Assembly: GCF_011801125.1 (NCBI RefSeq)
Contig: NZ_CP046171.1
Coordinates: 1-64,000 of the forward strand
DNA from: Nocardia brasiliensis
GTDB lineage: Bacteria; Actinomycetota; Actinomycetes; Mycobacteriales; Mycobacteriaceae
Length of the DNA stretch: 64,000 bases
Direction: 5' to 3'
Below, piece after piece: positions 12,977-49,557 of the stretch. The notes beneath the pieces are model-generated. The model made no database searches and had not been told where the DNA came from. It saw only the letters and a list, made by a program, of their open reading frames with translations. A program made the translations under genes and the position numbers. Position 1 is the first letter of the stretch; every line of letters begins with the position of its first letter.

Positions 12977-13014
12977 CTACACGTTGTCGCGAACTACGCG
13001 CCACAACAACATAA

Positions 13015-13055
13015 GGGCCTATAGCTCAGGCGGTTAGAGCGCTTCGCTGATAACG
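13015..13055 (+). pseudogene. Truncated tRNA-Ile (5' half) at attL
   Basis: The first 41 nt of tRNA-Ile(GAU), identical to 23822-23862 of the intact gene, stop inside the 3' anticodon stem. After 13055 the sequence diverges into the mobile element. With two more A at 13013-13014 this forms the 43-bp direct duplication that marks the left junction. Confidence 0.93.
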
Positions 13056-13273
13056 CGGTTTCGCGACCAGCGGTAGTCCTAAACAGCCCCGCTGAGCTGC
13101 ACAGACATCCAAACGAGTACTAACGCGTGACAGGCGTTCCCAAGCCTCTCGCTGCTTTTCTGCTGCCTCGATCCCGAAGCGGATAGATCGCCTATCCGCC
13201 GCTTTGGCATGTCTGGTGACTTCCCTTCCCCCTGCTTCCTCGTACTGGCCGTCTCCTACAGTCGGTCGGGCCT

Positions 13274-13304
13274 GTCAACCCCGGAGAGCGGAGCGTGGGT
13301 TGAC
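13274..13304. repeat. Inverted repeat near the left end of the element
   Basis: GTCAACCC (13274-13281) and GGGTTGAC (13297-13304) are perfect 8-bp arms with a 15-bp spacer. A second pair, GCGGATAG (13179-13186) and CTATCCGC (13192-13199), lies 90 bp to the left. They could be integrase, Rep or regulator sites; nothing decides between these. Confidence 0.4.
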
Positions 13305-13382
13305 TGGTTCGGGCGGCTGTTCAGGACAATTGGGCCATGAGGAGGCAGGACCTCCACCGCGGGTGCCTCGACGTGACGAGAA

Positions 13383-13398
13383 GGGGGCCGAAGCCCCC
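13383..13398 (-). terminator. Hairpin behind the small zinc-finger gene
   Basis: GGGGGC-CGAA-GCCCCC lies 6 bp past the stop codon of the leftward gene at 13405. No T tract, as often in actinobacteria. Confidence 0.55.
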
Positions 13399-13404
13399 AG
13401 CCGG

Positions 13405-13569
13405 TCAGCTGTAGTCGTCGGCGGCGGATTCGCGTGCGGCCCAGTAGGCGGCGAGGCAGGGGCCGCAGACGTGGTCGTGCTCGTCGCCGGGGACGTAGAT
13501 CGGGAGGGTGCCGATGGCGGGGTTCGGGCAGTTGGGGGTGGTGCAGGCGAGGGTGCTGGTGGCGGTCAT
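13405..13569 (-). CDS. Small zinc-finger-like protein
   Basis: A 54-residue protein of unknown function. The start is ATG at 13569, supported by GGAGAGGA about 9 bp upstream; the frame remains open further upstream but without a better site. Two cysteine pairs (CTTPNC near residues 9-14 and CGPC near 35-38, flanking a His-rich HDHV segment) suggest a single zinc-binding fold. It is the only gene at the left end of the element transcribed toward attL, and its promoter region is one arm of a large inverted repeat. Confidence 0.6.
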   Translation of the reverse strand: MTATSTLACTTPNCPNPAIGTLPIYVPGDEHDHVCGPCLAAYWAARESAADDYS

Positions 13570-13575
13570 GGTGGG

Positions 13576-13819
13576 GGTTCCTCTCCGGTCGGTGTCGGTG
13601 GATCTGGGCTCGCCCGGACCAGGCCGGTCCCACCCCGGCAAAGGCTCGACGGCGCACGGGAGGTCCCGCGGCTCATCAGGCTATGAACTCGCGCGATCGG
13701 GTTATGGATAGTCCGCCGCGGGGCCTCCCGTGCGTTGTCGACACGTCTTGGCCTTTGCCGGGGTGGGTCCGGTCTGGTACGCCATCGGCAGATTCATCGG
13801 CGCCGTCCGGAGAGGAACC
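13576..13819. repeat. Large imperfect inverted repeat covering a duplicated promoter/leader region
   Basis: Arm 1 (13576-13672) and arm 2 (13715-13819) are about 100 bp each and read as diverged inverted copies around a 42-bp spacer. Shared blocks include GGTTCCTCTCCGG, CCCACCCCGGCAAAGG and GCACGGGAGG. Each arm ends in a ribosome-binding-site-like GGAGAGGAACC pointing outward: arm 1 toward the zinc-finger gene at 13569, arm 2 toward a GTG-started 18-codon frame at 13823. The structure could fold as a long hairpin or serve as a divergent promoter. Confidence 0.7.
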
Positions 13820-14360
13820 CTGGTGACCACTGCTGGCCCTGGACCGGATCTCCCCCGGCTGCTCGAACACCGTTGGTGACCACAGCCAGTCACCCCGTGC
13901 GTCGACTGGCCGATTCGTGCTCGGCTGCGGAGGTAGGTCGGGTACGGCTCACGGCGTGCTCAGCACTTACCCGGTCATGCCCGAAGTGACCAAGAGTGTC
14001 GTGGAGTGGCAGTTGTGAACGTGAGCGCGGTGCCGACGTGCCGACGCGCCCGCCTGCCGTAGCTTGCGGAGGCCGGCGGTCGCGCGGCGCGGCGCGGCGG
14101 TAGCCGCGCGGGCGGCGCGCAGCGCCGCTCTTGATCCTCAATGGCGGAATTCGGCAGCAACCGATGTACGTGCGGTGCGTGCCGTGGTGACCGGAACATC
14201 CTGCCCGATCGGTTCCGGAGCAGACATCGTCGGTGTCTCGGGTCGGAAGTGGCTGCGTTCCAACGGTTCCGGTCGGCGGGCTGACGTAGGGTGGTGACAC
14301 CTCGTTCCGAGGGGCGGTGGACATGGTCCACACACCGCGCCCAGGAAGGAGGTGGTGGGG
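13820..14360. other. Gene-poor segment of the element
   Basis: No protein gene of normal size is convincing here. GTG 13823 opens an 18-codon frame behind a good ribosome binding site, possibly a leader peptide. The middle (about 14060-14150) is extremely GC-rich with alternating GCGCGGC runs. The element's rolling-circle origin or transfer site could lie here, but I see no diagnostic motif. Confidence 0.35.
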
Positions 14361-14477
14361 ATGGCGAAACATCGCCGGGCAAAGAGCAACGCCCCGGTCG
14401 ACTACGGCATGCTGATTGCGGTTGCTGCCGTGGTCGCCGGGGCGCTCGTAGTGGTCCGCCGAGTGCGGGCTAGCTAA
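14361..14477 (+). CDS. Small single-pass membrane protein
   Basis: 38 residues: a basic N-terminus (MAKHRRAKS), one hydrophobic segment (about residues 16-32), and a basic tail ending RRVRAS, so the topology would be membrane-spanning with both ends charged. ATG 14361 has AAGGAGG about 9 bp upstream, which is the main support. A terminator-type hairpin follows. Function unknown; small membrane proteins are frequent in spread regions of such elements. Confidence 0.5.
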   Translation: MAKHRRAKSNAPVDYGMLIAVAAVVAGALVVVRRVRAS

Positions 14478-14485
14478 CCCACCAG

Positions 14486-14516
14486 GTGGGGCCGTCTGGG
14501 AAAGAGGCGGTCCCAC
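14486..14516. terminator. Hairpin between convergent genes
   Basis: GTGGGGCCG (14486-14494) pairs with CGGTCCCAC (14508-14516), 9 bp with one G-T pair. It separates the small membrane protein gene from the convergent glycosyltransferase gene. Confidence 0.5.
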
Positions 14517-14552
14517 CGCTCGACATCACTTGCGTGACACTTGGATTGTACC

Positions 14553-15311
14553 TCAATGTGTGGAACCGGTGAAGCTTTGCATTAGAGCTGCCGCGCGTTC
14601 ATTGATAAGGCTCATTCGTGCTTGCCATTCCTCGGCATGAGTATGGTGCTGCTGAGCTGTTTCCTGTCCCTCCCATTTGCGGTACAGAAGTCCGACTTCG
14701 CTATCAAAGAATCCTGTGGAAAGCAGGCTGGCTGCGATAAGCATTCCCGTGTCGTCGGAACCTGGCACGCCCATCCATCCGCCTATGGCAGTTACTAGCT
14801 GGCGTCTAATGCAAATTGTTGTTGGATGGACCGGAAGGCGGAAATTGTTTTCCCGCCAGTATTTGAGCACTGTGCCTGGGAGGAGGAGGCCGTGCGCTGG
14901 GTCGCCGTCGAATCCAACCTTCGACCCGTCTGGCAGGAGGTCAAGCAGCCGGGAAGTTGTCCAGGCTACCTCAGTACTGTCGGATGTGAGGTGTTCGATG
15001 TCTCGGAGGAGTACGCCCGGCGTCAGGATGTCGTCGGCATCGAGATTCTTGATGAGTTCCCCACGGGAATTTGCAAGGGCCATATTTCGAGTTAGGGCAA
15101 CTCCTCCACGTCGACCTGTTCGGAATACGATTCGATCGTCAACGCCGCGAAGTATCTCTTGCGGCACTCCAGAGTTGCCGTCTTCTTGTAGTACCCATTC
15201 CCACCTCCAGCCTGGAGGAAGCTCCTGCGATATTACAGATTCACATGCGGCTTTAAGATGATCGGGATCGGGATTGTAAACCGGAGTAATGATTGAAATC
15301 AGGCGATCCAT
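14553..15311 (-). CDS. Family 2 (GT-A) glycosyltransferase, element cargo
   Basis: Predicted to move a sugar from a nucleotide donor to an unknown acceptor. The 252-residue protein has the GT2 start ISIITPVYNPD, then a metal-binding DxD-type NLDADD near residue 95, and no membrane segment. The start ATG 15311 lies one base after the stop of the GntR gene, with AAAGGTGGG in front, so the two are translationally coupled. Codon use is clearly richer in A/T-ending codons than the rest of the window, which points to recent acquisition. No other polysaccharide gene is nearby, so the substrate is open. Confidence 0.8.
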   Translation of the reverse strand: MDRLISIITPVYNPDPDHLKAACESVISQELPPGWRWEWVLQEDGNSGVPQEILRGVDDRIVFRTGRRGGVALTRNMALANSRGELIKNLDADDILTPGVLLRDIEHLTSDSTEVAWTTSRLLDLLPDGSKVGFDGDPAHGLLLPGTVLKYWRENNFRLPVHPTTICIRRQLVTAIGGWMGVPGSDDTGMLIAASLLSTGFFDSEVGLLYRKWEGQETAQQHHTHAEEWQARMSLINERAAALMQSFTGSTH

Positions 15312-15312
15312 A

Positions 15313-16107
15313 TTACTTGGCCCACCTTTCGAGTGGAGTTTCATACACAAGTTCGGTCCGATCGCCAGGCAAGGTCACATAGGCAACATCTACCACCCGA
15401 CCGGTTGTGTCAAGAACGGTCTTATGGATGAGAAAGACGGGTACGCCCGGTCCGACGTCGAGTAGCTGCGCTTCCATCGGGGTAGGGGGCCTTGTGGTGA
15501 CGGCTTCGATGACGCGGTCGACTTCGATTCCGACAGTGCTCAGCTGATGCATTGTGCCGCCGGGCCATGGTTCGTTGGACGCGTCCAGAAGTTGTGGATT
15601 CGCGGCTACCAAGTCATAGACCAGATACGAGCGGGCGAGGTTGAACGGGGCAGCCTCGGTCTTGGACCGAGTGCGGAACTCACGTTGCACCAACTTCGCA
15701 CCGACAGGGATACCGAACTGGCTAGCGAGGTCCTCGGTGGCGTTGACAATGGCGTACTTGGCTTCGAAGTCTAGATCTGCCACGTCAAGTCCGGTGTCCC
15801 GTTCGGTCAGGCCTGTGGCGGCTCGTACCGCCTCCGGCTCATGTACTCGGGCTTTGTCGAAGTGGTTGTTGGCGTTGCTGCGACGGACTTTCTGGCGTGG
15901 AGGTCGGACGTAGACACCTAGACCCTGACGGGAGTCGATCAGCCCTTCGCTGCGCAGGACGTCAAGTGCTTGCCGAACCGTCGGCATGCTGACCTTGTAT
16001 CGCTCGGCGAGAGTTGCGCTGGTTGGCAACTGCGAACCACCCGGCAGTTCCCCAGACTGGATGGCTTGCCGCAGGTCATCGGCAAGTCGCTCGTATTTCA
16101 GTGCCAT
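15313..16107 (-). CDS. GntR/HutC-type transcriptional regulator
   Basis: 264 residues with an N-terminal winged HTH (YERLADDLRQAIQSGELPGGSQLPTS... spanning about 4-70, with the GntR pattern LAERYKVSMPTVRQAL) and a C-terminal UTRA ligand-binding domain (about 100-255). In pSAM2 the GntR protein KorSA represses the replication activator gene pra; this gene is likewise divergent from a pra-like gene, so the same role is likely. It is co-transcribed with the glycosyltransferase. Operator candidates lie in the 113-bp divergent region. Confidence 0.88.
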   Translation of the reverse strand: MALKYERLADDLRQAIQSGELPGGSQLPTSATLAERYKVSMPTVRQALDVLRSEGLIDSRQGLGVYVRPPRQKVRRSNANNHFDKARVHEPEAVRAATGLTERDTGLDVADLDFEAKYAIVNATEDLASQFGIPVGAKLVQREFRTRSKTEAAPFNLARSYLVYDLVAANPQLLDASNEPWPGGTMHQLSTVGIEVDRVIEAVTTRPPTPMEAQLLDVGPGVPVFLIHKTVLDTTGRVVDVAYVTLPGDRTELVYETPLERWAK

Positions 16108-16128
16108 GGCTTCAGCCTATTCCTCACG

Positions 16129-16184
16129 TTGTCTTGACAAGTAGGGACCCGCCGTCCATCCTAGTTGTACGGTTAACAAGACAA
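16129..16184. promoter_or_regulatory. Candidate GntR operators between korSA-like and pra-like genes
   Basis: TTGTCTTGACAA (16129-16140) is a TTGTC/GACAA inverted repeat. The octamer TTGTCTTG recurs in inverted orientation at 16177-16184 (CAAGACAA). GGTTAAC occurs twice (16171 and 16187) around the second copy. Binding by the GntR protein would repress both divergent promoters. Confidence 0.55.
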
Positions 16185-16220
16185 CCGGTTAACAGGATCG
16201 ATTATTCCGAAGGAGTAGCA

Positions 16221-16694
16221 ATGGCGATCAAGAGGGGTCACAAGTTCGAGATTCCGTTCAGGACGGCGTTTCCGCAGGGTCTGGTGCTGTTGGGCGAGGT
16301 CTCGCAGGTGACGAAGTACAACCCGAATCCGAACGCGACGCCGGAGCCGATGTTCGATTACGACCCGAAGACGGGTGAGGGTTCGGGGTTGCCGTTGTGG
16401 AAGGCGACGGTGACTGACCCGCATGAGGACAAGGCGAAGCGGGCGTCGTTCGAGGTCATTTTCGTGGCTCAGGTGCAGCCGGTTCCGGCTACCGAGGAGA
16501 TCGTGCCTGGTACCGGGATGCGGATGATCGAGCTGGAGGGCGTGACCGCTGAGCCGAAGGTGATGGGTCAGGGGGAGTTCAAGTACCAGGGCTACACCTT
16601 CCGGGCAACTGGCATCAAGGGTGATACCTCCGGTGCCAAGCAGGCCCCGAATGATCCGGGTGCTTCGCGTCCGTCCGGCGCTAAGGCGGCGTGA
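16221..16694 (+). CDS. Pra-like activator of replication, integration and excision
   Basis: Pra of pSAM2 switches on rep, xis and int. This 157-residue protein has the pattern I associate with that family: AFPQGLVLLGEVSQV near the start, a GLPLWKATVTDP motif in the middle, FVAQVQPVPA, then ELEGVTAEPKV and a YTFRATGIK end. ATG 16221 is preceded by GAAGGAG at a spacing of about 6. It is the first gene of the rightward operon, opposite the GntR gene, and its stop overlaps the next start (TGATG). Confidence 0.7.
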   Translation: MAIKRGHKFEIPFRTAFPQGLVLLGEVSQVTKYNPNPNATPEPMFDYDPKTGEGSGLPLWKATVTDPHEDKAKRASFEVIFVAQVQPVPATEEIVPGTGMRMIELEGVTAEPKVMGQGEFKYQGYTFRATGIKGDTSGAKQAPNDPGASRPSGAKAA

Positions 16695-17521
16695 TGAAGA
16701 CGGCAGGCCAGCAGTCGGCGGGGATGCGGTGGGCGCGCTGGTCTGCCGTGGTCATCATCGTGGTTATCGGGGCGGCTGCGTTCGTGCTGAGCTTCGCTGC
16801 GTTGCGTGATCTGGCGATTCTGGCCAACACTCCGAAGCGGTGGGCGTGGCTGTTCCCGGTGATCGTGGACGGCACGATCATTCAGGCGACCGTGGGTGCG
16901 TTGGTGCTGGCGAAGTCACGGGAACGTGGGTGGTTTCTGTGGGTGCTGGGTATCGGTGCTGCGGTCTCGATCGCGGGTAACTCGCTTCATGCGGTCGCGG
17001 CCGGCCGAATCCTGCCGTGGTGGGCTGCGGCGTTGGTGGCGGCGATCGCTCCGATTTCGCTGCTGGTCGACACGCACGGGTTGGCGGTGTTGTTCCGTGC
17101 CGTGCAACAGGATTCGGCTGCTGAGCCGGTCTCTGCGCCGGTTCCGGCGTCTGATCCTGTGCCGGACAAGCCCGCGGCTACTGCTTCGGTTCCCGCGCCG
17201 GTTCCTGCTCGCCGGAAGAAGGCGTCGACGCGTCGCGATCCGGGCAAGGTCGCTGAGGCGGTGGCGTTGCACGCGGCGGGTAAGTCGTATGCCGAAATCG
17301 GTCGGACGCTGGGCGTTTCGGCTCCGACGGCGCGTAAGTACGCGACCTCGGCCCCGAAGCCTGCCCCTGTCGCTGCCCCGCAACCGGTGAGTGCTGCGGT
17401 CCCGGCTGCGACACCTGTTCCTGTTTCCGCGCCTGTGGTGGCCGGTGTGCGGCCGGTGCCGGTGCGTTCCATTCATCCCGTGCGGCCGGTGCAACAAGCG
17501 CTGCCGATCACGGTTTCCTAG
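16694..17521 (+). CDS. DUF2637 membrane protein (SpdB-like)
   Basis: 275 residues. The N-terminal half has four predicted membrane helices (about 15-38, 48-70, 75-97 and 105-128), the DUF2637 layout of plasmid-spread proteins. The C-terminal half is a Pro/Ala/Val-rich region around an HTH-like segment (about 180-215, AAGKSYAEIGRTLGVSAPTA). It is thought to help spread of the element within the recipient mycelium. I use ATG 16694, which overlaps the pra stop; GTG 16691 is the alternative. The fusion of a membrane part to an HTH is common in this family. Confidence 0.78.
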   Translation: MKTAGQQSAGMRWARWSAVVIIVVIGAAAFVLSFAALRDLAILANTPKRWAWLFPVIVDGTIIQATVGALVLAKSRERGWFLWVLGIGAAVSIAGNSLHAVAAGRILPWWAAALVAAIAPISLLVDTHGLAVLFRAVQQDSAAEPVSAPVPASDPVPDKPAATASVPAPVPARRKKASTRRDPGKVAEAVALHAAGKSYAEIGRTLGVSAPTARKYATSAPKPAPVAAPQPVSAAVPAATPVPVSAPVVAGVRPVPVRSIHPVRPVQQALPITVS

Positions 17522-17538
17522 GCAAGGAGTTGGTTTCG

Positions 17539-17832
17539 ATGGCTGAGAACAACGGTGCGGTGGTGTCGCTGGCGTTGAGGCAGCGGTGGACGGCCGGGAT
17601 CGTGTTGCTCGTTGGTGTGGTGGCGTTTCCGCTGGCGTTGTTGCTGACGGTGGGTCGTGAACCGGGCGGGACGGTGGCCACGGTCGCTCCTCGCGCGGAT
17701 GGGTGCGTGATGTTCTGCGAAGACGTCCCGCAGGCATCGTTTCGCGAGAGCAATTGCGCTGAGGCACCTTCGGGAATCAGCTTCATGCCGGAGGACTGTG
17801 CGCCCCTGACGGGCAAGGGGTGGTCACGATGA
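17539..17832 (+). CDS. Small membrane protein of the transfer region
   Basis: 97 residues with one strong membrane helix (about 20-42) and a C-terminal part holding four cysteines (GCVMFC, SNC and EDC), likely outside the cell and disulfide-bonded. ATG 17539 has AAGGAG at a spacing of 10; TTG 17530 is possible. The stop overlaps the start of the translocase gene (ATGA), so they are coupled. Function unknown; it may be a partner of the transfer pore. Confidence 0.65.
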   Translation: MAENNGAVVSLALRQRWTAGIVLLVGVVAFPLALLLTVGREPGGTVATVAPRADGCVMFCEDVPQASFRESNCAEAPSGISFMPEDCAPLTGKGWSR

Positions 17833-19154
17833 GCGGGATTCTCGGAACTCTTGCCGTGGGTGGCTCGGTGGTGGCGCCTGCGGGGCTGATCTGGCTGGCT
17901 CGCCGGGACCTGCCCGGTACGAAGAAGCCGAAGCCGCAGACGGTCGCGCAGATCGTGGACGATGCCGCACCTGAGTTGCGTACCGCTGTCTCGATCCTGG
18001 CTGATCCGCTGCAAACCAACCTGATGTTGGCCGCGCTGGGTCTCGGTTCGGCCGAGGGTGGTTTTCCCAAGCTCGAACGCTACGACTACACCCGCTACGG
18101 GATTCAGGTTGACCTGGTGATGCTCGGCGGTCAGTCGCTGGCGGACTGGTCCAAGGACGAGAAGTTGCAGCAGTTCGCCACGTATTTGGCGGTGCCGAAG
18201 GTGACAGCGTCGTCGCCCGCTCCGTCGTGGGTTCGTCTCCAGGTGAGGGCGTTTGACACTCTCGTCTCCCCGGCAACGAGGCCGGAGGTGATCCCCAATG
18301 GTGTGGATCTGGAGGCGGTCCCGGTCGGTGTTACCGAGGACGGCGACATGTGGCGGTTGCGGGTGCTCTACGCACACATCCTGATCGCTGGTGCGATGGG
18401 TTCGGGCAAGGGCAGCGTGTTGTGGTCGCTGCTGGCCGGTGTGGGTCCGGCGATCAAGGCCGGGCTGGTGGATGTGCGTCTGGGTGATCCGAAGGGCGGG
18501 GCGGAGTTCGGGCGTGGTGAGGACCGGTTGTTCACCCGTTTCTGTGTCGACGGTGCCTCGATCCTGGGCATGCTCGATGAAGCGGTCAAGGAGATGGACG
18601 AGCGGGCGGTGCGGATGCGCCGGGCTGGTCTGCGCAAGCTCGTTCCCACTATCGATGAACCGTTGATCCTGATCATCATCGATGAAGCTGCGGCTTTGTC
18701 GTCGTATGCGACCCGTGAGGAGCAGGAGGAGTTCCGGCGCTTGACCGGGCTGCTGCTGTCGAAAGGCCGCGCGGTCGCGGTGTCGGTGGTGGCGGCGTTG
18801 CAGGACCCGTCGAAAGAGACGATGCCCAACCGGCAACTGTTCCCGGTCCGGATCGGGCTGCGCCTGGACGAGCCGACACAGAACGCGATGGTCCACGGTC
18901 AGGGTGCCCGGGATCGGGGTGCGCGCTGTGACGAGATCAGCGAACACACACCCGGTGTCGGTTACGTCGGCCAGGACGGCACACGCGGGTTCGTGCGAGT
19001 GCGGGCGTTCTGGGTCGACGACGACGCAGCCGATGCCATTGTCGAGGCGTTCTCTCCGGCTCCGGTGATCACCGGTCCCACTGAGGATTACAGCGGGTTC
19101 GACCCTGATGACCTCGGCGACGAGGACGGCGATGCTGCGGGGGTGGCGGCGTGA
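17829..19154 (+). CDS. FtsK/SpoIIIE-type DNA translocase, conjugal transfer (TraSA-like)
   Basis: Hexameric ATPase expected to pump double-stranded element DNA into the recipient. The 441-residue protein has one N-terminal membrane segment, a pre-motor domain with MLGGQSLADW (98-107), then Walker A AGAMGSGKG (187-195) and Walker B LILIIIDEA (279-287). ATG 17829 overlaps the previous stop, and the next gene overlaps its stop (GTGA). pSAM2 and relatives transfer with a single TraB/TraSA-type motor, so this gene alone would be enough for DNA transport. Confidence 0.88.
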   Translation: MSGILGTLAVGGSVVAPAGLIWLARRDLPGTKKPKPQTVAQIVDDAAPELRTAVSILADPLQTNLMLAALGLGSAEGGFPKLERYDYTRYGIQVDLVMLGGQSLADWSKDEKLQQFATYLAVPKVTASSPAPSWVRLQVRAFDTLVSPATRPEVIPNGVDLEAVPVGVTEDGDMWRLRVLYAHILIAGAMGSGKGSVLWSLLAGVGPAIKAGLVDVRLGDPKGGAEFGRGEDRLFTRFCVDGASILGMLDEAVKEMDERAVRMRRAGLRKLVPTIDEPLILIIIDEAAALSSYATREEQEEFRRLTGLLLSKGRAVAVSVVAALQDPSKETMPNRQLFPVRIGLRLDEPTQNAMVHGQGARDRGARCDEISEHTPGVGYVGQDGTRGFVRVRAFWVDDDAADAIVEAFSPAPVITGPTEDYSGFDPDDLGDEDGDAAGVAA

Positions 19155-19477
19155 AACGAGGATTCGTGACCGAGACACACGTGGTCATCTACTGCGACAG
19201 CTGCGGTGACATCTATACCGAAAACACTGGTGAATCAATCTGTTTCGACTCCACTTCCCAGGCGGTGTCGTATCTGCAACACCGTGGCGCGGGTGTGGGC
19301 TGGGTTTATGACGGTGACCGGGTGTGGTGTGACGGCTGCACCGCGGCTGATCACTGCGACCGCAACGGCCACCAGTTCCCTGAGCACTGGCAGACCACGC
19401 GGCGGCTGCTCGGTGTTTCCACTCGTTCGCGCACCTGCATCGTGTGCGGCATCGCTGAAATCGAGGCTCTGTCATGA
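19151..19477 (+). CDS. Zinc-ribbon-like small protein
   Basis: 108 residues with three cysteine pairs: CDSC near 15-18, CDGC near 60-63 and CIVC near 97-100, plus several His residues, suggesting one or two zinc sites. No known family recognised. The GTG start overlaps the stop of the translocase gene and its own stop overlaps the next start (ATGA). Position in the transfer operon suggests a transfer or regulatory accessory. Confidence 0.6.
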   Translation: MKRGFVTETHVVIYCDSCGDIYTENTGESICFDSTSQAVSYLQHRGAGVGWVYDGDRVWCDGCTAADHCDRNGHQFPEHWQTTRRLLGVSTRSRTCIVCGIAEIEALS

Positions 19478-19617
19478 CCATTCACTACTTCGATGAGACC
19501 GACGCATTCGATCGTGACGAGCGCGACGCGGTGATCTGCTTGCAGTCGGTGCGCCAGCTCGTCGACGACAACTCGGTGCTGGCCTGGGATGAGCACAGTG
19601 CGGGGTGGGCGGCATGA
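19474..19617 (+). CDS. Small acidic hypothetical protein
   Basis: 47 residues, acidic (many Asp/Glu), predicted helical in the second half (DAVICLQSVRQLVDDN). It is supported by ATGA overlaps at both ends, keeping the operon gap-free. Function unknown. Confidence 0.55.
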   Translation: MTIHYFDETDAFDRDERDAVICLQSVRQLVDDNSVLAWDEHSAGWAA

Positions 19618-19847
19618 GGGGCCGCGAGTGGGGCCTGCTGGTCGGCGGGCAGGTACACGCGCTGGTCAAGGCCCGCAATATCACCGACGCCACCATGTAC
19701 GCCTGCAACCAGACGGCCCGTCGGCGCGCGAAAGCCGTTGTCGTGTACCGGGATTCAGAATCCATCGGGTGGCGGCGCTGGATCGATGACAAACCCGTCG
19801 CCTCCCAGCTCTCGTTCGATCTCACCGGAAAGGAGGCCCGTCGATGA
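19614..19847 (+). CDS. Small basic hypothetical protein
   Basis: 77 residues, basic, with a beta-rich start (EWGLLVGGQVHALVK) and a central RRRAKAVVVYRDSE segment; it could bind nucleic acid. ATG 19614 overlaps the upstream stop and its TGA overlaps the next ATG. No family recognised. Confidence 0.6.
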   Translation: MRGREWGLLVGGQVHALVKARNITDATMYACNQTARRRAKAVVVYRDSESIGWRRWIDDKPVASQLSFDLTGKEARR

Positions 19848-20473
19848 CCACGAAAACGACAGTGACCGACAAGTCCCCGGCCGAAGACCTAATGGAGGCG
19901 TTCGGGCTGCTGGTCTGGCACATCGTCAAAGCCGTGGCCGTGATCGCGTGGTGGGCGCTGCTGTTCCCGATGATCTCGGTGCCCCTCGGTGGGGCTGTCG
20001 CGGCCGGTGTTTTGCTGGGCTGGCCTTACGGGTTCGCGCTGGTCGGGGTGTTCATCGCGGGGATGGTGGCGTGGCGACTACGGAGTCCACGAACCTTCGA
20101 GCGGTGGATCACCGGGCGGGCACGGACCCGGTTCCTGGCGTGGCGGCGCTACCGGCTGGGCTGGAGCGGGCGACTGACGGCTTGCAAGCTCACCGTGGCG
20201 CACGGGACCGGGCTGCTGGTTCCCCGGCGGGTCTCGGTCGCGGTCGGCGCTGCTGTCGATGTGGTGCGGGTGCGGATGCTGCAAGGCCAGTGCCCCGCTG
20301 ATTGGGAATCACGCGCTGACAACCTCGCTCACACCTTCGGCGCCACCGACTGCCGAGTCCGCATCGCCGGTCCCGGCCTGGTCGAACTCCGGTTCCGACG
20401 CGCTGATGCCCTGGCCGATCCGTTCGAGCTGCCCCCCATCGACGGCGGGCGCTTCTGCAAGGAGACGATCTGA
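19844..20473 (+). CDS. Membrane protein with a motorless FtsK/TraB-like pre-motor domain
   Basis: 209 residues with two membrane helices (about 22-45 and 48-75), a basic linker, and a soluble domain (about 110-195). The soluble part contains MLQGQCPADW (145-154), the same pattern as MLGGQSLADW in the translocase at 17829, followed in both by a helix and a strand ending in RxxDxL. So it looks like the N-terminal half of a TraB-type translocase without ATPase. It may form a membrane collar for the motor. Start and stop overlap its neighbours. Confidence 0.6.
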   Translation: MTTKTTVTDKSPAEDLMEAFGLLVWHIVKAVAVIAWWALLFPMISVPLGGAVAAGVLLGWPYGFALVGVFIAGMVAWRLRSPRTFERWITGRARTRFLAWRRYRLGWSGRLTACKLTVAHGTGLLVPRRVSVAVGAAVDVVRVRMLQGQCPADWESRADNLAHTFGATDCRVRIAGPGLVELRFRRADALADPFELPPIDGGRFCKETI

Positions 20474-22164
20474 TGAACACCCCCAACACCGAGAGTGCGA
20501 AGGCGGGAGGGACTGCGGCCCAGCGCCGTGCCCTACCCAACCTGTTCGAGGTCGCTCAAGCTGCGGCTGATCAGTACATGGTGTGCAAGCGTCCGATCGC
20601 CATGCGCGTGGAGGACCCCAAGACCGGGACCGTCACCTACGAGGGTTCCCCGTGTAAGTCCACCATCGAGTCGGTGTGCCCGGCCTGCGCGAAAGCCAAC
20701 CGGCTGCTGCGGATCGCTCAGTGCCGCGAAGGATGGCACGCCAGTCACGAACTGGTGCCCGACAAGACCGATGCGACGGCGCGTCAGGTCGAGTTGCTGA
20801 CCGAACGCGCCGATCTGGTCACCCAATACCGTGCTGCGGTGGCCGAGGCGGCCGAAGACCTCGCCGAGTCCCTGCGTGAGGTGATCCGGGCCTTGGATGA
20901 GGATCTGCGGGAAACCGGCCTGCGTGGTCGTCTCCCGGCCCTGGACGCCACCATCAAGGATCGGCGTAAGCGTTCCACCAGGCGGCGTCAGGACGTGCCG
21001 GACCTGCCTCGTAAGAAGGTGTCGAAATCGACTGTGGGACAGGTCTTCGCGGGCAAGCATCAGCCCTCGATGTTCGTCACGCTCACCATGCCGAGCCGGG
21101 GCCGCATCCGTCGTGACGGTGCCCTCGACGCCACGGGGCTGCCGTGTTCGGATGGGTCGCCGCTCGACATGGACAGCTACGACTACACCGGTGCCGCACG
21201 CGACATCGTGTTCTTCTCCAAGCTGGTCGACCGCTGGATTCAGAACCTGCGCCGTGCGGTCGGGCGGGACGTGCAGTACTTCGCCACGGTGGAACCGCAG
21301 AAACGCGGGGCACCGCACCTGCACATCCTGATCCGTGGCGCGATCTCTCGCGAGCTGCTGAAGCTTGTCACCGCGGCTACCTACCACCAGGTGTGGTGGC
21401 CTCACTTCGGGCCGGAGAACCGCGTCTACGGCGGCCCGCATCAGCCGGTCTGGGATCACAAGCGCGCCACCTTCATCGACCCCGGCACCGGTCAGCCGTT
21501 GACCTACTGGGACGACGCCCTGGACACCCTCGATCAGGTCGATGACCTCGAACCCGCGTACGTGGTGCGGTTCGGTTCCCAGATGGACCGCAAGCAGATC
21601 AAGGGCGTGGTGCCGGAAAAGGCCGGCCGGACCATCGGCTACGTCACCAAGTACCTGACCAAATCCATCTCGGAGATCGTGGAAGCCCAGACCGACCGCG
21701 CAGCCGAACACTACGACCGGCTTCACGCCGAACTCCAGAACACGCCCTGCTCGCCTCGGTGTGCGGTGTGGCTCGAATACGGCATCGTCCCCCAAGGGGT
21801 CAGCGACAAGACCGTCCCTGGCCGTTGCCGTGGCAAAGCGCACCGTCGAGACACCCTCGGCTTGCCCGGTCGTCGTGTGCTGGTCTCACGCCGCTGGTCG
21901 GGCAAGACCCTCATCGACCACAAGCAAGACCGCGTGGATTTTGTTCGGCAACTGCTCGCCGACGCCGGTATCCACAAGCCCGACACCAGCCATTACAAGG
22001 TGACCCCGGTCGAGCCCGGCGACAAATCCCGGCCGTTGCGTGAGCACCTGATCATGGGCTCGATCTCCCGACGGAATACCTGGCGCGCGGAGCTGGTCAA
22101 AGCCCAGTTCGCGGCAGGCCCACCACAGACCCCAGAAACTTCGGCAACTCGGCAAGCGGCGTGA
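20473..22164 (+). CDS. RepSA-like rolling-circle replication initiator
   Basis: 563 residues. A cysteine-rich N-terminal section (CPAC at 69-72, further Cys at 38, 61 and 84) is followed by the HUH endonuclease: motif 1 FVTLTMP (201-207), motif 2 with HLH (282-284) after TVEPQKRGAP, and motif 3 GYVTKYLTK with Tyr390 and Tyr394 as nucleophile candidates. The protein would nick the element's double-stranded origin and start rolling-circle replication after excision. ATG 20473 overlaps the stop of the preceding gene; xis follows after 18 bp. Confidence 0.9.
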   Translation: MNTPNTESAKAGGTAAQRRALPNLFEVAQAAADQYMVCKRPIAMRVEDPKTGTVTYEGSPCKSTIESVCPACAKANRLLRIAQCREGWHASHELVPDKTDATARQVELLTERADLVTQYRAAVAEAAEDLAESLREVIRALDEDLRETGLRGRLPALDATIKDRRKRSTRRRQDVPDLPRKKVSKSTVGQVFAGKHQPSMFVTLTMPSRGRIRRDGALDATGLPCSDGSPLDMDSYDYTGAARDIVFFSKLVDRWIQNLRRAVGRDVQYFATVEPQKRGAPHLHILIRGAISRELLKLVTAATYHQVWWPHFGPENRVYGGPHQPVWDHKRATFIDPGTGQPLTYWDDALDTLDQVDDLEPAYVVRFGSQMDRKQIKGVVPEKAGRTIGYVTKYLTKSISEIVEAQTDRAAEHYDRLHAELQNTPCSPRCAVWLEYGIVPQGVSDKTVPGRCRGKAHRRDTLGLPGRRVLVSRRWSGKTLIDHKQDRVDFVRQLLADAGIHKPDTSHYKVTPVEPGDKSRPLREHLIMGSISRRNTWRAELVKAQFAAGPPQTPETSATRQAA

Positions 22165-22182
22165 ATACGGAAGGAGAAGGGG

Positions 22183-22380
22183 ATGCGACTAGGTCAGGCT
22201 CAGCGAGCGACGTACACGGTGCAAGAGGTGGCAGACCTGTTGGGGATGTCGCGCAACAACGCCTATCGGGCGATCAACGATGGTGAGGTCCCGGCCAAAC
22301 GGGTGGGTCGTCGGTGGGTCGTTCCGCGCAAGACCTTCGATACCTGGCTTGAAGACTGCACATTGCCGGAGGTGGCATAA
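22183..22380 (+). CDS. xis: Excisionase (Xis), MerR-like HTH
   Basis: 65 residues with a winged-helix DNA-binding fold of the HTH_17 type (TVQEVADLLGMSRNNAYRAINDGEVPAKRVGRRWVVP in two parts, with the wing GRRWVVP). It directs the integrase toward excision. A GAAGGAGAAGG ribosome binding site precedes ATG 22183. It lies 2 bp upstream of int, the order found in pSAM2. Confidence 0.88.
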   Translation: MRLGQAQRATYTVQEVADLLGMSRNNAYRAINDGEVPAKRVGRRWVVPRKTFDTWLEDCTLPEVA

Positions 22381-22382
22381 CC

Positions 22383-23624
22383 ATGGGATTTATCGACAAG
22401 ACCGAAGCGGGGAAGTGGAAAGCGTTCTGGCGCGAGCCTTCCGGCGTGCAACGGTCCAAGACCTTCGGCACCGAGCGCGAAGCCAAGTCGTTTCTCGCTC
22501 AGGTCGAGGTCGCCAAGTCCACCGGTACCTACGTCTCACCGCATGCCGGGCGTACCCGCTTCGGTGAGCACGCCCAGGCATGGATGAAGACTTGGAACCA
22601 TGAACGCACGACGACCGGGCGTGATGAGTCGATCATGCGTACCCATGTGCTGGCCCAGTGGTCGGACTGGCAGCTGGGCAAGGTCGATCATCTTTCGGTG
22701 CAGCAGTGGATCACCGAATTGTCGTCGCGGCGTTCCCCGGCCACGGTTGCCGAGTGCAAGCGGCTGATGTCGGGGGTGATGCGTTCCGCGGTTCGTAATC
22801 GGTTGATCGGGGTCGATCCCACCGAGGGCGTGAAGGTGCCGCGTCGCCGCAAGACCGACAAGGACGAAGCGCGGATTCTGACCCGTGATGAAGTTCGGCA
22901 ACAGCTGCTGCCCGCTATCGTCCCGCAACGGCACCGGGCCATGGTCGCGCTGACCGCATTCGCCGGACTGCGCTGGGGTGAGGTCGCCGGACTGTGCGAA
23001 GACGCGGTAGATCTCGATCGGGGATTGGTGCGTGTGATCCGCACCGTGACCGAGGTCGGCGGGCATACCGAGTTCAAGCCATTCCCCAAGTCTGCGGCGG
23101 GTCGGCGCACCATTCCGCTCCCGGCCTGGGTCGTGACCGAGCTGCGCGGATTCATGGCCGAACACCCTCGTGGCGACCGAGGCTTGATCTTCGCCAACGA
23201 GGCAGGCGCACCCCTGCGGCGAGGACTGTTCCGGGCTCGGATCTGGCGTCCGGCATTGGTGCGCGCGGGTCTTCTCGGTGAGGTCTGCGAGGTCGGCGAC
23301 GGCTACGAGGCGGTCTGGATGGATGAGGATGGCTCGGTGGCCTCGGAAGTGTTCGGCAAGTACGAACAGGCGGTCAAACACGTGGCCGCGAACGAAGCTG
23401 GCGGGCTGCGGTTCCATGATCTGCGCGACTGCTACGGGACCTGGCTTGCCGACGAAGGGGTCGAACCCCACAAGATCGCCAAAGTGATGGGGCACGAGAA
23501 GATGACCACCACCATGGCCTTCTACATTCGCCGCCAGGACGACTACGACGCGGTGAGAGGTGCCCTCGGTGACGACGAGGACGGCGACGACGGAACCGCA
23601 TCCATCGGAGCCGTAGTCGGCTGA
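22383..23624 (+). CDS. int: Tyrosine recombinase (integrase) of the element
   Basis: Catalyses integration into and excision from tRNA-Ile. An N-terminal AP2-like arm-binding domain (about 10-42, GKWKAFWREPSG...) is followed by the SAM-like core-binding domain (about 60-150) and the catalytic domain. Active-site residues visible are Arg197 (GLRWGE), His345 and Arg348 (HDLR), His371 (GHEKM) and Tyr381. Unusual: residues 299-341 form an inserted module between Arg197 and HDLR that resembles the N-terminal arm domain and recurs at the C-terminus of the prophage integrase at 46138. A strong terminator and attR follow. Confidence 0.95.
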   Translation: MGFIDKTEAGKWKAFWREPSGVQRSKTFGTEREAKSFLAQVEVAKSTGTYVSPHAGRTRFGEHAQAWMKTWNHERTTTGRDESIMRTHVLAQWSDWQLGKVDHLSVQQWITELSSRRSPATVAECKRLMSGVMRSAVRNRLIGVDPTEGVKVPRRRKTDKDEARILTRDEVRQQLLPAIVPQRHRAMVALTAFAGLRWGEVAGLCEDAVDLDRGLVRVIRTVTEVGGHTEFKPFPKSAAGRRTIPLPAWVVTELRGFMAEHPRGDRGLIFANEAGAPLRRGLFRARIWRPALVRAGLLGEVCEVGDGYEAVWMDEDGSVASEVFGKYEQAVKHVAANEAGGLRFHDLRDCYGTWLADEGVEPHKIAKVMGHEKMTTTMAFYIRRQDDYDAVRGALGDDEDGDDGTASIGAVVG

Positions 23625-23654
23625 TGCTGCCTTTTCGCTGCCTACGAGCAACTG

Positions 23655-23707
23655 ACGGAGCGTCCGGACCGGTGATCAGAACCCATCGATCACCTCGGGC
23701 GCTCCGT
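23655..23707 (+). terminator. Terminator after int
   Basis: ACGGAGCG (23655-23662) pairs with CGCTCCGT (23700-23707), with a nested stem GGTGATC/GATCACC (23671-23677, 23688-23694), followed by TTCTC. It shields the tRNA promoter from the element operon. Confidence 0.8.
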
Positions 23708-23753
23708 TTCTCGTACGTGCACCCTGACGCGTGCGGTGCTTCTACCAGCCGTT

Positions 23754-23782
23754 TTGGTGCACCGCAGCGGGATCTGTACGAT
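23754..23782 (+). promoter_or_regulatory. Element-borne promoter for the reconstituted tRNA-Ile
   Basis: TTGGTG (23754-23759), 17-bp spacer, TACGAT (23777-23782), placing the start of transcription about 33 nt before the tRNA. The 17-mer TCTACCAGCCGTTTTGG (23741-23757) and its 65-bp distance to the tRNA are the same as at the original chromosomal promoter, while the rest differs. Confidence 0.65.
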
Positions 23783-23819
23783 ACTTCAAGGCAGTCACGA
23801 CAAGGGCTGTTCAAACGAC

Positions 23820-23862
23820 AAGGGCCTATAGCTCAGGCGGTTAGAGCGCTTCGCTGATAACG
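23820..23862. other. attR, right copy of the 43-bp core
   Basis: Identical to 13013-13055. It comprises two A plus the first 41 nt of tRNA-Ile and ends within the 3' anticodon stem. The crossover must lie inside this segment. Confidence 0.9.
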
Positions 23863-23895
23863 AAGAGGTCGGAGGTTCAAGTCCTCCTAGGCCCA
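23822..23895 (+). tRNA. tRNA-Ile (GAU)
   Basis: Complete cloverleaf: acceptor GGGCCTA/TAGGCCC, D arm, anticodon stem CTTCG/CGAAG around loop CTGATAA (GAU), T arm GGAGG/CCTCC, discriminator A at 23895. The CCA end is not fully encoded. The 5' 41 nt come from the mobile element, the rest from the chromosome. Confidence 0.97.
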
Positions 23896-23908
23896 CCCTT
23901 TCATTTCA

Positions 23909-45939: not shown

Positions 45940-46022
45940 GGGCGAGTGGCGGAATGGCAGACGCGCTGGCTTCAGGTGCCAGTGTCCTTCGGGACGTGGG
46001 GGTTCAAGTCCCCCTTCGCCCA
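45940..46022 (+). tRNA. tRNA-Leu (CAG)
   Basis: Acceptor GGGCGAG/TTCGCCC (one G-T), anticodon stem CTGGC/GCCAG around TTCAGGT (CAG), long variable arm TGTCCTTCGGGACG, T arm GGGGG/CCCCC, discriminator A at 46022 with CCA encoded at 46023-46025. A -10-like TACTGT lies at 45921. Its 3' end is the likely phage attachment site. Confidence 0.96.
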
Positions 46023-46137
46023 CCACATAAGCGCAGGTCAGGGCTGAGATCGATGATCTTGGCCCTGTCTGCGTACACACTCCGGTACACAACGGATCTG
46101 AGGGGATTCGGCGTCGCGACCGCGAAGGAACGCGACC

Positions 46138-47616
46138 ATGGCTGCACGCCGCACCCGAATCGCCCCTACTCCACAGGGGCCGACCCCCACCCCGCACACC
46201 AGCGCCGCGGGTATCACCACTTGGAAAGTGCGCTACCGCATTCCGCGCGGCGGCCGGACCGTCGCGACCTCCCGGACGTTCGAGAACCTCACTCGCGCCG
46301 CGTGGTTCGCCCGCCTGCTGGTCAATCCCGGCCCGGCCGAGGCCGAGGCGATCCTCGAGGCGATGCTCGCCGCCGAGGCCGCGGGCATCCACTTCGTGCT
46401 ACTGCGGGACCATCTGCACAGCTACGTCGACGGCCTGACCGGTATCGAGGCAGAGACCCGCCGCAAGTACCGGCGATTCATCGATCGCGACATCGTGCCG
46501 TTCTTCGGTCACGCCCTGCCCGTCGACGCGCTCACCCCGGCCATGGACGCCGCGTGGGTCGTCCACCTCGAACAAGAAATCGGCAACAGCGCCAAGACCA
46601 TTCACAACAAGCACGGGTTCCTGTGCGCGGCGATGGGTGCCGCCGCGCGCCAGCGCCCGACATCGCTGATCGCCTACAACCCGTGCAGCGACACGACCTT
46701 GCCGCCGGTCTACCCGGCCGCGCTGGACGCGTTCAACGACGAGGAGTATGAGTTCCTCGAACATCTGCTCGCCCCGTTCTGGCGGCCGATGTTCGAGTTC
46801 GCCACCATGTCGATGGCCCGGCCCGGTGAGTACGGCGCGCTGCGCGTCGGCGACATCGACCCCGACACCGGCGCGGTCACCATCGAACGCGCATGGAAGT
46901 GGGCCAACGGCAAATTGAAGATCGGCAAACCGAAATCCGTGCGGGGCACCCGGACCACCTATGTGCCCCTCGAGACCGTCGGCCGCCTCGATCTGGATCG
47001 CCCGTTGACCGAGCCTCTGTTCCTCACGCCCAATGGCAAGGAAGTCACCGCGGTCCGGTTCTACCAGCAGGGCTGGGCACCAGCCATCGCGCGGTTGCTC
47101 GCGCTCCGCAACGGCGACCGGAGCCTGTTCACCGGCCGCGCCGGGTGGGAGGGCGAGTCGTTCGATGTGCTGCTCGCCCGCTACGGCCATCTCATCGAGC
47201 GCATGATGCTCAAGCGGCTCACGCCCTACTGCACCCGCCACACCGGCATCTCGTGGCGACTCCAAGACGGCGAGCCCATCTGGGTGGTGTCCCGCGACGC
47301 CGGGCACGAATCCATCGTGACCACCGATAAGCGCTATGGGCACATCTCCGCGGCGGCAAGCGCTGCCGCCGCACAGACCGTCGCAGGCCGGTTGCCCCGG
47401 CTACGCGCTGAGCTCGTCGACCTCGAGCAGGCGCGCCGCCGCCGCATGGTCCGTCTCGGCGAACTCGGCGAGGTCTGCGCCGTCGCAGGAGGGTTCGAGG
47501 CAATCTGGATGAACGCCGAGGGGGAGGTGCAATCGGCTGTCTTCGCCGACTATGCCGCTGCCGTCGACCACGTCGCCCAGAACGAGGCAGGCGACCGGCT
47601 CGCCGTGGCCGCCTGA
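46138..47616 (+). CDS. Prophage tyrosine integrase
   Basis: 492 residues. An N-terminal arm-type segment (TTWKVRYRIPRGGRT... about 27-62) is followed by a core-binding domain (about 90-195) and the catalytic domain. Visible active-site residues are Arg228 (MARPGEY), Arg367-His368 in YCTRHTG (the usual HxLR His is Tyr), His390 (GHES) and Tyr400. Residues 444-486 at the C-terminus form a module that matches residues 299-341 of the AICE integrase in 25 of 43 positions. ATG 46138 follows tRNA-Leu. Confidence 0.92.
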   Translation: MAARRTRIAPTPQGPTPTPHTSAAGITTWKVRYRIPRGGRTVATSRTFENLTRAAWFARLLVNPGPAEAEAILEAMLAAEAAGIHFVLLRDHLHSYVDGLTGIEAETRRKYRRFIDRDIVPFFGHALPVDALTPAMDAAWVVHLEQEIGNSAKTIHNKHGFLCAAMGAAARQRPTSLIAYNPCSDTTLPPVYPAALDAFNDEEYEFLEHLLAPFWRPMFEFATMSMARPGEYGALRVGDIDPDTGAVTIERAWKWANGKLKIGKPKSVRGTRTTYVPLETVGRLDLDRPLTEPLFLTPNGKEVTAVRFYQQGWAPAIARLLALRNGDRSLFTGRAGWEGESFDVLLARYGHLIERMMLKRLTPYCTRHTGISWRLQDGEPIWVVSRDAGHESIVTTDKRYGHISAAASAAAAQTVAGRLPRLRAELVDLEQARRRRMVRLGELGEVCAVAGGFEAIWMNAEGEVQSAVFADYAAAVDHVAQNEAGDRLAVAA

Positions 47617-48489: not shown

Positions 48490-48543
48490 GTGATTTCCTC
48501 CGAAACGTTGACGCTTCGGACGCACGGCTGTCAGGCTCGACCC

Positions 48544-49557
48544 ATGGGGACGGAGTGGTTGTTAATCGAGTGCATCAGGGAAACGCCCACGGTAATGGCG
48601 GTGGGGCGCAAACCGTTGCCACTCAAGGATATTGACGCGGTACTGCGGGGTCCGCGGCGTAGTGCGGCCCGCCGCGCGGTCGCGCAGGTACGTGAGACGG
48701 GAGAGCGGTTCGAGGAGCGCTCCGAGACCAAGGGCGAGCACATCGTCGCCGAGCCGATCAAGAACGTCTTCGGCATGGTGCACGGCGTGCGGTTGTGGAT
48801 CGGTGATCTCACCGAAGAGATCCCGGCGCCCAGCCGTAGCGGTGCCTGGGATTGGGACGAGGAGAAAATCACTACGTTGGCGACTGAGGAGATGCACGAC
48901 ATCTACGCGGTTCCCCGTGCGCAACGGCTCCCCGAGGTCGCGCGGATAAGCGGGTTGCGCCATGTCACCACCGCTGACGACAAATCCGCGGCGTTGGCGG
49001 CCTCGCTGTCCGCGGAGCTGCTCAACGATATGACTAAGACCTTCCAGACGACATGGCAGATCAAGCGCGACGACAACGTCCTGCGCGACATCAATTTCGT
49101 GGCACGTGGGGCGTACGTGGGCGGCGTGCCGTTCCTACACGGCATTACGCACGACATCACCCCCGGCGGCGTCGACGACAACGCGGTCGTGCCGCCGCTG
49201 ACCTACGCCGAGGCGCTGATCGAGGGCGAGCTGCGCGGCAACGAGGAATGGCCGATTCTGGTAGACCTGCGCTCGCTCACCGGGTTCGAGTGGTTGCGTG
49301 AGCCAATGCCCGAGGTCGCCTGGGAGCGCACCGGCATTTCGAGCCGCGACCCTGCGCTGCACCCCGACGACATACCGGCCGCCCGCGACATCGCTCGCCG
49401 GTGCCGGCGTGACGGGCATTCCGGCGGCACGGTGCGGGTCCGCCGGATCGATGGCAGTTGGATGAGTGTCGATCTGACCGCGAAACTTGTGCTCCTGACC
49501 AGAGAATCGGAGACGAGTGCGGCACTGGTGAAGTTGCGGCGACCGCCCGCAGTGTGA
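48544..49557 (+). CDS. Rv3651-like PAS-associated protein
   Basis: 337 residues. The start MGTEWLLIECIRETPTVMAVGRK, the VHGVRLWIGD segment and GAWDWD resemble the Rv3651 family (DUF5593/DUF5628), whose structure has a PAS domain flanked by related domains. This is recalled, not searched. I prefer ATG 48544; a TTGACG-18-CAGGCT promoter (48508-48537) would make it leaderless. GTG 48490 is an alternative. It lies between int and the immunity region, so it is probably a lysogenic cargo gene with a sensory role. Confidence 0.6.
   Translation: MGTEWLLIECIRETPTVMAVGRKPLPLKDIDAVLRGPRRSAARRAVAQVRETGERFEERSETKGEHIVAEPIKNVFGMVHGVRLWIGDLTEEIPAPSRSGAWDWDEEKITTLATEEMHDIYAVPRAQRLPEVARISGLRHVTTADDKSAALAASLSAELLNDMTKTFQTTWQIKRDDNVLRDINFVARGAYVGGVPFLHGITHDITPGGVDDNAVVPPLTYAEALIEGELRGNEEWPILVDLRSLTGFEWLREPMPEVAWERTGISSRDPALHPDDIPAARDIARRCRRDGHSGGTVRVRRIDGSWMSVDLTAKLVLLTRESETSAALVKLRRPPAV

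Follow-up and report, generated by a model that had tools for sequence, protein, structure and literature searches.

Two tyrosine recombinases encoded in the 64-kb stretch of Nocardia brasiliensis DNA analyzed here (the window) share a module that, judging from profile comparisons, is very probably a second, displaced copy of the arm-binding (AB) domain. In integrase A, encoded by an AICE, the copy lies within the catalytic domain just before the HxxR box. In integrase B, encoded by a prophage, it forms the C-terminal tail. The genome is a single contig of 7.95 Mb.

The explanation that we favor would run in four steps; taken as a whole, we hold it to be rather probable. In a family of actinobacterial AICE-type integrases, an AB domain was very probably copied into the loop that separates the W.PAL..AGL helix from the HxxR box, where it has remained. 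It kept its framework residues and lost the conserved basic ones, moderately across the whole family and strongly in Nocardia-type members (by 'Nocardia-type' we mean the 20 inserts most similar to that of A; the named ones come from Nocardia or Nocardiaceae). These two steps are read from the sequences, the third from the sequences and, moderately, from trees: a lineage of Nocardia prophage integrases would have gained the altered copy, along with a few residues of A's catalytic domain, at the C-terminus, where it follows an RRRR linker. Finally, the copy would no longer bind arm DNA and would instead act as a regulatory protein-contact module tuning synapsis and direction. Its partner would most likely be the basic AB domain, a neighboring protomer or the excisionase. 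Provided that both attachment points are on the exterior of the catalytic domain, either may serve this purpose: one would act in cis and the other, through the tail, possibly in trans. An internal AB copy in many actinobacterial genera, together with the prophage tails, would show that this regulatory domain has been duplicated, has taken on a new use and has passed between conjugative elements and phages, and the module would offer a handle on the regulation of tyrosine integrases beyond arm-site binding.

The two integrases and the shared module

Integrase A is a tyrosine recombinase according to its Phage_integrase domain and catalytic residues (Table 1). H345, D346, L347 and R348 are invariant in an alignment of 78 rows, and Y381 is at least 90% conserved. 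The HDLR motif is what we take to be box II (HxxR), and H345, R348 and Y381 are presumably the catalytic residues. The element codes for RepSA, an FtsK-type protein, a GntR-UTRA regulator and an Xis-like HTH_17 protein, which identifies it as a pSAM2-type AICE. It occupies ~10.8 kb between two exact 43-bp repeats (13013-23862). Among the matches listed, the closest named relatives of integrase A are from Nocardia. The AICE sits at the 5' part of its tRNA gene, unlike most AICEs: the relevant passages of one survey place the vast majority of tyrosine-recombinase AICEs at the 3' end of a tRNA gene (PMC3218068). An exact 11-bp direct repeat is present in two copies (23797 and 23815; span 23797-23825), 18 bp apart, at the edge of the att core. 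No third exact match of this repeat was found elsewhere in the 64-kb window.

Integrase B is likewise a tyrosine recombinase, as indicated by its integrase profile match and catalytic residues. Its match to PF00589 (6.9e-5, 23.1 bits) lies under the Pfam cut-off. R228, R367 and Y400, which we assume to be the catalytic residues, are invariant in 60 rows. The box-II histidine is replaced by tyrosine in B's family, giving YxxR for HxxR (Y364 at least 90% conserved, R367 invariant in the same 60 rows); the histidine is present in the two distant outgroup proteins. Terminase large subunit, portal, RecT-like and exonuclease genes lie downstream of integrase B, and these structural and packaging genes together with the 25-bp att repeats identify the element as the prophage of a temperate phage. 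Its annotation covers the part inside the window; the distal att copy (chromosome 87529-87553) is ~41.5 kb away, beyond the window. About 240 bp inside the distal att there are two adjacent 22-bp direct repeats, 95% identical (L285:3268-3311, chromosome ~87267-87310), possibly arm or repressor sites. The second gene past integrase B encodes an Rv3651-like PAS protein (48490-49557; PF18007, 5e-17), and in the genus genome L083 an ORF with a C-terminus similar to this protein lies downstream of a tailed integrase.

Table 1. Coordinates of the two integrases, their module copies and associated features in the window
Feature	Position	Strand	Evidence
FtsK/SpoIIIE-type transfer protein of the AICE	17820..19154	+	PF01580, 2.4e-10
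RepSA replication initiator of the AICE	20473..22164	+	PF20199, 6.4e-98
Excisionase-like HTH_17 gene, 65 aa, directly 5' of integrase A	22183..22380	+	PF12728, 1.8e-16
Integrase A, 413 aa, tyrosine recombinase of pSAM2-like AICE	22383..23624	+	Phage_integrase PF00589, 7.5e-15
AB1, N-terminal arm-binding domain of integrase A	22386..22508	+	Module profile match, E 7.4e-4 (own genome)
AB2, module within the catalytic domain of A, residues 293-341, immediately 5' of the HxxR box	23259..23405	+	Alignment and profile; homolog of AB1
HDLR of A, residues 345-348 (HxxR, taken as box II)	23415..23426	+	Sequence
AICE att repeat, distal copy, 43 bp, exact	13013..13055	+	Repeat search
AICE att repeat, copy in the 5' part of tRNA-Ile (23822-23897)	23820..23862	+	Repeat search
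Prophage att repeat at the 3' end of tRNA-Leu (45940-46025), 25 bp	45999..46023	+	Exact copy at 87529-87553
Integrase B, 492 aa, prophage tyrosine recombinase	46138..47616	+	PHROG 1 integrase, 3.6e-41, residues 25-428
RRRR linker preceding the tail module of B	47434..47445	+	Of 43 tailed relatives, 31 have RRRR and 36 have RRR or more
Tail module of B, residues 438-486	47449..47595	+	Alignment and profile

The initial annotation of the window had matched residues 299-341 of A (23277-23405) to residues 444-486 of B (47467-47595) with 25 identities in 43 positions. The coordinates, the residue numbers and the count are all exact, and the annotation was also right to place the module within A's catalytic domain and at the C-terminal end of B. 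The Smith-Waterman score of A against B is 153 and that of shuffled A peaks at 62 in 500 trials, which rules out a chance likeness. The common unit is longer than 43 residues. Six more residues belong to it at the front, so that it opens with VR.G.LG and comes to 49 columns (293-341 in A, 438-486 in B); in neither protein does it stand at the N-terminal position of arm-binding domains. At the DNA level, the 43-residue stretches are identical in 85 of 129 bases, or 35, 30 and 20 of 43 at the first, second and third codon positions. The third codon positions rule out recent DNA copying or gene conversion between the two genes, and the overall pattern points to an old, protein-type likeness. The two integrases had also been described as unrelated. 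This was too strong, since without the module they still score 72 along the tyrosine-recombinase core and thus are distant relatives with a weakly alignable core.

Homology to the arm-binding domain and distribution of the module

A resemblance of the module to the N-terminal domain of A had been proposed on the basis of 9 identities in 33 positions, and it turned out to reflect real homology. A profile built from 23 modules (both inserts and tails) matches AB1 in a one-genome search (see Table 1), and it also matches the N-termini of A-type integrases in three other genomes (9e-5 to 1e-3). Across 150 genomes of the genus, this profile finds 24 places in 17 genomes, comprising inserts, tails and the N-terminal arm domains of A-type integrases. 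The relationship holds in both directions. A profile of 120 inserts matches the N-terminus in all 96 insert-masked proteins of at least 385 aa (in 95 with E below 1e-3), and each of the 120 inserts is matched in turn by the N-terminal profile at E<=1, these E-values referring to small search sets that include A. Direct comparison of the insert and N-terminal profiles with hhalign gives a probability of 96-97% over 42-43 columns. As a sliding control, the insert profile was compared with 45 segments of the family alignment: it scores only at AB1 or at the insert, the 29 others reaching no more than 2.2%.

The N-termini themselves can be linked to a known family, as 14 of 18 from A's family match PF14657 (Arm-DNA-bind_4) at E<=1, the best at 2.4e-6; A's own N-terminus gives 0.012, under the cut-off. 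A direct Pfam scan of 22 inserts alone matched an arm family in none of the 22 cases. No AB domain was found in PDB and Pfam searches with the module itself or in a PDB search with the AB1 profile. Identification of the module with a known Pfam, PHROGs or PDB entry was rejected, because no match reached the cut-off or made sense. PF26003, shown for many relatives of A, is presumably not the insert either, being absent from all 19 listed proteins shorter than 350 aa, all of which carry the insert.

By these comparisons the module would fold like an AB domain, with three strands and one helix. It is similar in length and framework to the IntTn916-type AB domain (PF14657; the N-terminal domain of Tn916 Int), to which it is homologous via AB1. 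However, the module copy is acidic, and instead of an N-terminal position it occupies an internal one in the catalytic domain or a C-terminal one. The passages of PMC8138268 that deal with complex recombinases describe an N-terminal AB domain in all six of their six subgroups. Like the beta insertion of IntTn916/Tn1549 and the insertion of integron integrases, the module is a family-specific addition to the catalytic fold. The beta insertion is placed between catalytic strands 2 and 3, whereas the module lies directly before HxxR and has 48-50 residues, and in those passages neither insertion is described as an AB copy (PMC8138268). The RitA recombinases, with two core-binding domains, resemble A in having a repeated accessory domain; according to the same part of the source, it is the CB domain that is repeated there, and in series (PMC8138268), whereas in A it is the AB domain, displaced and altered in charge. 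A search of the open-access literature by title and abstract start returned no description of an internal or C-terminal arm domain.

How general is the insert in A's family? Region 290-345 of A, a query that favors the insert, retrieved 187 proteins. All of the best 120 (A among them) have a piece of 48-50 residues between VRAGLLG and the HxxR box, counting the seven residues of VRAGLLG. We also performed an insert-neutral search, using A residues 1-290 against 246 genomes of the class. Matches were present in 114 of them, and 30 loci were taken; with L059 and two plasmid integrases, this gave 33 loci. By profile, the insert is present in 11 of the 33 loci and absent from 22. The insert-free loci include L097 and L098, which are 46 and 48% identical to A residues 1-290, the other 20 being more distant. 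The spacing between the alignment end and HxxR agrees with this division: it is 12-22 residues in 18 of the 22 insert-free loci and 54-55 in 10 of the 11 insert-bearing ones, the eleventh (L092) being frame-broken near HxxR. One insert-free locus, L081, has a different long loop (62) at the place of the insert. L097, L098 and L100, with a deviating HxxR motif, were judged by eye.

The initial annotation had also considered that the module might simply belong to the catalytic fold, at one position in all family members. The single place stands, as the position is fixed within A's family. An ordinary part of the fold is ruled out, as the module is missing from 22 of 33 relatives outside that selection. 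In a tree of 62 rows computed with the insert removed, the 43 insert-bearing rows fall on one side of a branch, albeit a weakly supported one (42), and L097 and L098 stand beside insert-bearing rows within a group of 45 with support of 100. The simplest reading would be a single gain of the insert in A's family, loss in L097 and L098 being a possible alternative. A scan with one genome per species found the insert in 77 of 80 relatives (80 kept of 95); both search peptides flank the insert, so that this figure reflects spread and not frequency. Insert-bearing genera include Nocardia, Pseudonocardia, Actinomycetospora, Amycolatopsis, Micromonospora, Jiangella, Kribbella, Salinispora and others.

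A search with integrase B gave 72 proteins at E<=1e-10 among the best 8000 candidates by shared words. The tail is present in 43 of them, and 23 stop close to where the tail would begin, the tail-less sister clade ending at about residue 429 of B; of the others, 4 are truncated or frame-broken and 2 are distant outgroup proteins. All named members among the matches listed are from Nocardia. We constructed a tree without the tail from 60 rows (B and 59 of the 72); the 13 that we chose to drop were fragments, near-copies and a handful of others, P0141 among them. In this tree 38 tailed rows form one clade (99/97) beside 19 tail-less rows (98/99). One tailed protein, P0171, is basal on a long branch, and the tail therefore needs two changes on the tree. 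Among viral relatives of B, 6 of 80 (the best 80 of 106) are tailed, on contigs of 27-50 kb. A scan of viral contigs with one degenerate module peptide returned these six tailed contigs and no other.

Charge of the module and its putative role

In the joint alignment, AB1, the inserts and the tails have the framework columns in common (an aromatic residue at 18, A20, W22, G27, F34, A40 and A45). The basic positions are a different matter. In the N-termini, K/R occupies columns 19, 23, 32 and 38 in 92-100% of sequences and column 37 in 88%, whereas in the same five columns it is found in only 6-37% of inserts and 0-27% of tails. The mean net charge goes from +5.0 in N-termini (n=96) to -2.6 in inserts (n=120) and -8.3 in tails (n=44, range -11 to -6). 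The inserts are not uniform: the 22 top-ranked, most A-like ones average -6.2 and the remainder -1.8. A's insert and B's tail, the two copies in the window, carry -8 each.

The initial annotation had suggested that the module is an extra DNA-binding arm. Loss of the near-fixed K/R columns with retention of the W/A/W/G/F/A framework makes this a disfavored reading: the conserved basic AB residues would be those that contact DNA, and their loss speaks against DNA binding by the module's usual face. The case is much weaker outside the Nocardia-type members. Some inserts there retain K/R, including arginines, and those outside the 22 most A-like are mildly acidic, so that loss of DNA binding may be a trait of the Nocardia type only.

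An active arm, which would recognize a second class of arm sites or lengthen the core-site footprint, thus appears unlikely as an account of the module. It would agree with the homology to the arm domain, the RRRR linker next to the tail, the arginines kept in some inserts outside the Nocardia type, and the short direct repeats near both att sites (the 11-bp pair and the 22-bp pair in the distal prophage end). However, the repeats are explicable by AB1 or a repressor and have no tie to the module, and in addition to the lost K/R columns and the charge of both window copies, the module is more acidic than almost all other parts of the same proteins. In the 43 tailed B proteins the core has a charge of ~+1 per 44 residues; segments of it that are as acidic as the tail make up a median fraction of 0.000 and at most 0.064. 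For segments as acidic as the insert the median fraction is 0.064, and it is 0.0 in A itself.

It is improbable, in our judgement, that the module is a tolerated folded spacer with no specific partner, persisting since precise removal is rare. A loop position in A's family and the extreme end in B would be natural places for such a spacer, and integrases that lack the module occur in B's sister clade and among A's relatives. The pN/pS values bear on it from both sides. The value for the tail, 0.56, exceeds that of the catalytic box (0.375) and nearly equals that of the core (0.545), as estimated from 45 pairs of 10 sequences with high, perhaps saturated, pS. This suggests constraint on the tail about equal to that on the core and less than that on the catalytic box. 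A spacer would also have to account for the residues fixed at 100% across 44 tails (E8, W22, F34, H43 and E48) and for a charge that stays between -11 and -6 in all of them.

A protein-contact role, to which we would give somewhat better than even chances, is compatible with these features. A copy whose framework is intact but whose basic residues are gone would be suited to dock on, or act as a decoy for, the AB domain, Xis or a neighboring protomer. As far as the relevant passages of PMC8138268 go, association with Xis was found for no recombinases other than those containing AB, and the two were suggested to cooperate; we count this association, together with the Xis-like gene preceding the gene of integrase A, in favor of a contact role. 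AB domains are held to be the regulatory part that gives phage and ICE recombinases their directionality; the same source describes these domains as N-terminal (PMC8138268). A more specific version, which we put forward tentatively and with some doubt, is that the acidic AB copy would be a 'pseudo-arm'. By imitating arm DNA, it would occupy either the excisionase or a basic arm domain, whether that of its own integrase or that of a neighboring one, and would work as a built-in brake or direction switch that is portable between element families and has two attachment places.

Probable transfer between the two integrase families

It had been suggested that the module may be mobile, and the evidence does point to a move between integrase families. 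Most tails open with RRR(R)-x-VR.G.LGE. The corresponding VRAGLLG of A closes a helix of the catalytic domain and has a counterpart in insert-free relatives (..AGL.., e.g. ..RRAGLDGLTPHDLRH); because this helix end is also seen where the insert is absent, the tails carry a piece of A's catalytic domain. The trees add moderate evidence on direction. In a FastTree of 258 modules, the N-termini form one group (100) and the tails another (97). When this tree is rooted at the N-termini, the tails fall within the 20 most A-like inserts (support 92; 96 with three more), the nearest inserts being those of A, P0004, P0010 and P0018, followed by P0007. The 258-module tree gave long-branch warnings, and the module trees, being based on 44-50 columns, are weakly resolved. 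In a second tree, of 163 modules, the tails are again grouped (98), with a support of only 23 for the branch joining them to Nocardia-type inserts. Since the tails both keep residues of A's catalytic domain and nest within A-like inserts, the transfer probably ran from A's family to B's.

Besides the 24 places in the genus genomes, the genome searches found 9 places in 301 family and 26 places in 296 class genomes. All these places are A-type inserts, N-termini of A-type integrases or their near kin, B tails, or broken pieces. No module in any other context was found among the phages and plasmids searched. That A and B each acquired the module from a third, unseen source is very improbable: the support for the exact branching is moderate, and the genome searches scored the best 23 or 46 candidates per genome, which other contexts could escape, but the tails hold residues of A's catalytic helix and no other context appeared in the 150 genus, 301 family and 296 class genomes, viral contigs, phages and plasmids.

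There was also an opportunity for transfer from A to B. Of eight A-type genes or relics from the search of genus genomes, five lie beside tRNA-Ile(GAT) and three beside tRNA-Pro. Tailed B genes with flanks (11) are found beside tRNA-Ala(TGC) in five cases and tRNA-Leu in four; for the other two no tRNA was found. The tRNA-Ala gene is directly 3' of tRNA-Ile in the window and in L009, L010 and L012. In L083 (7001-11858), ~2 kb separates an A-type integrase that bears the insert and lies at tRNA-Ile from a tailed one of B type at tRNA-Ala.

Apparently broken remnants were seen in L043, L045, L047, L048 and L049. They derive from A-type integrases or, in L047, from a tail-like piece, and the A-type ones adjoin tRNA-Ile or tRNA-Pro.
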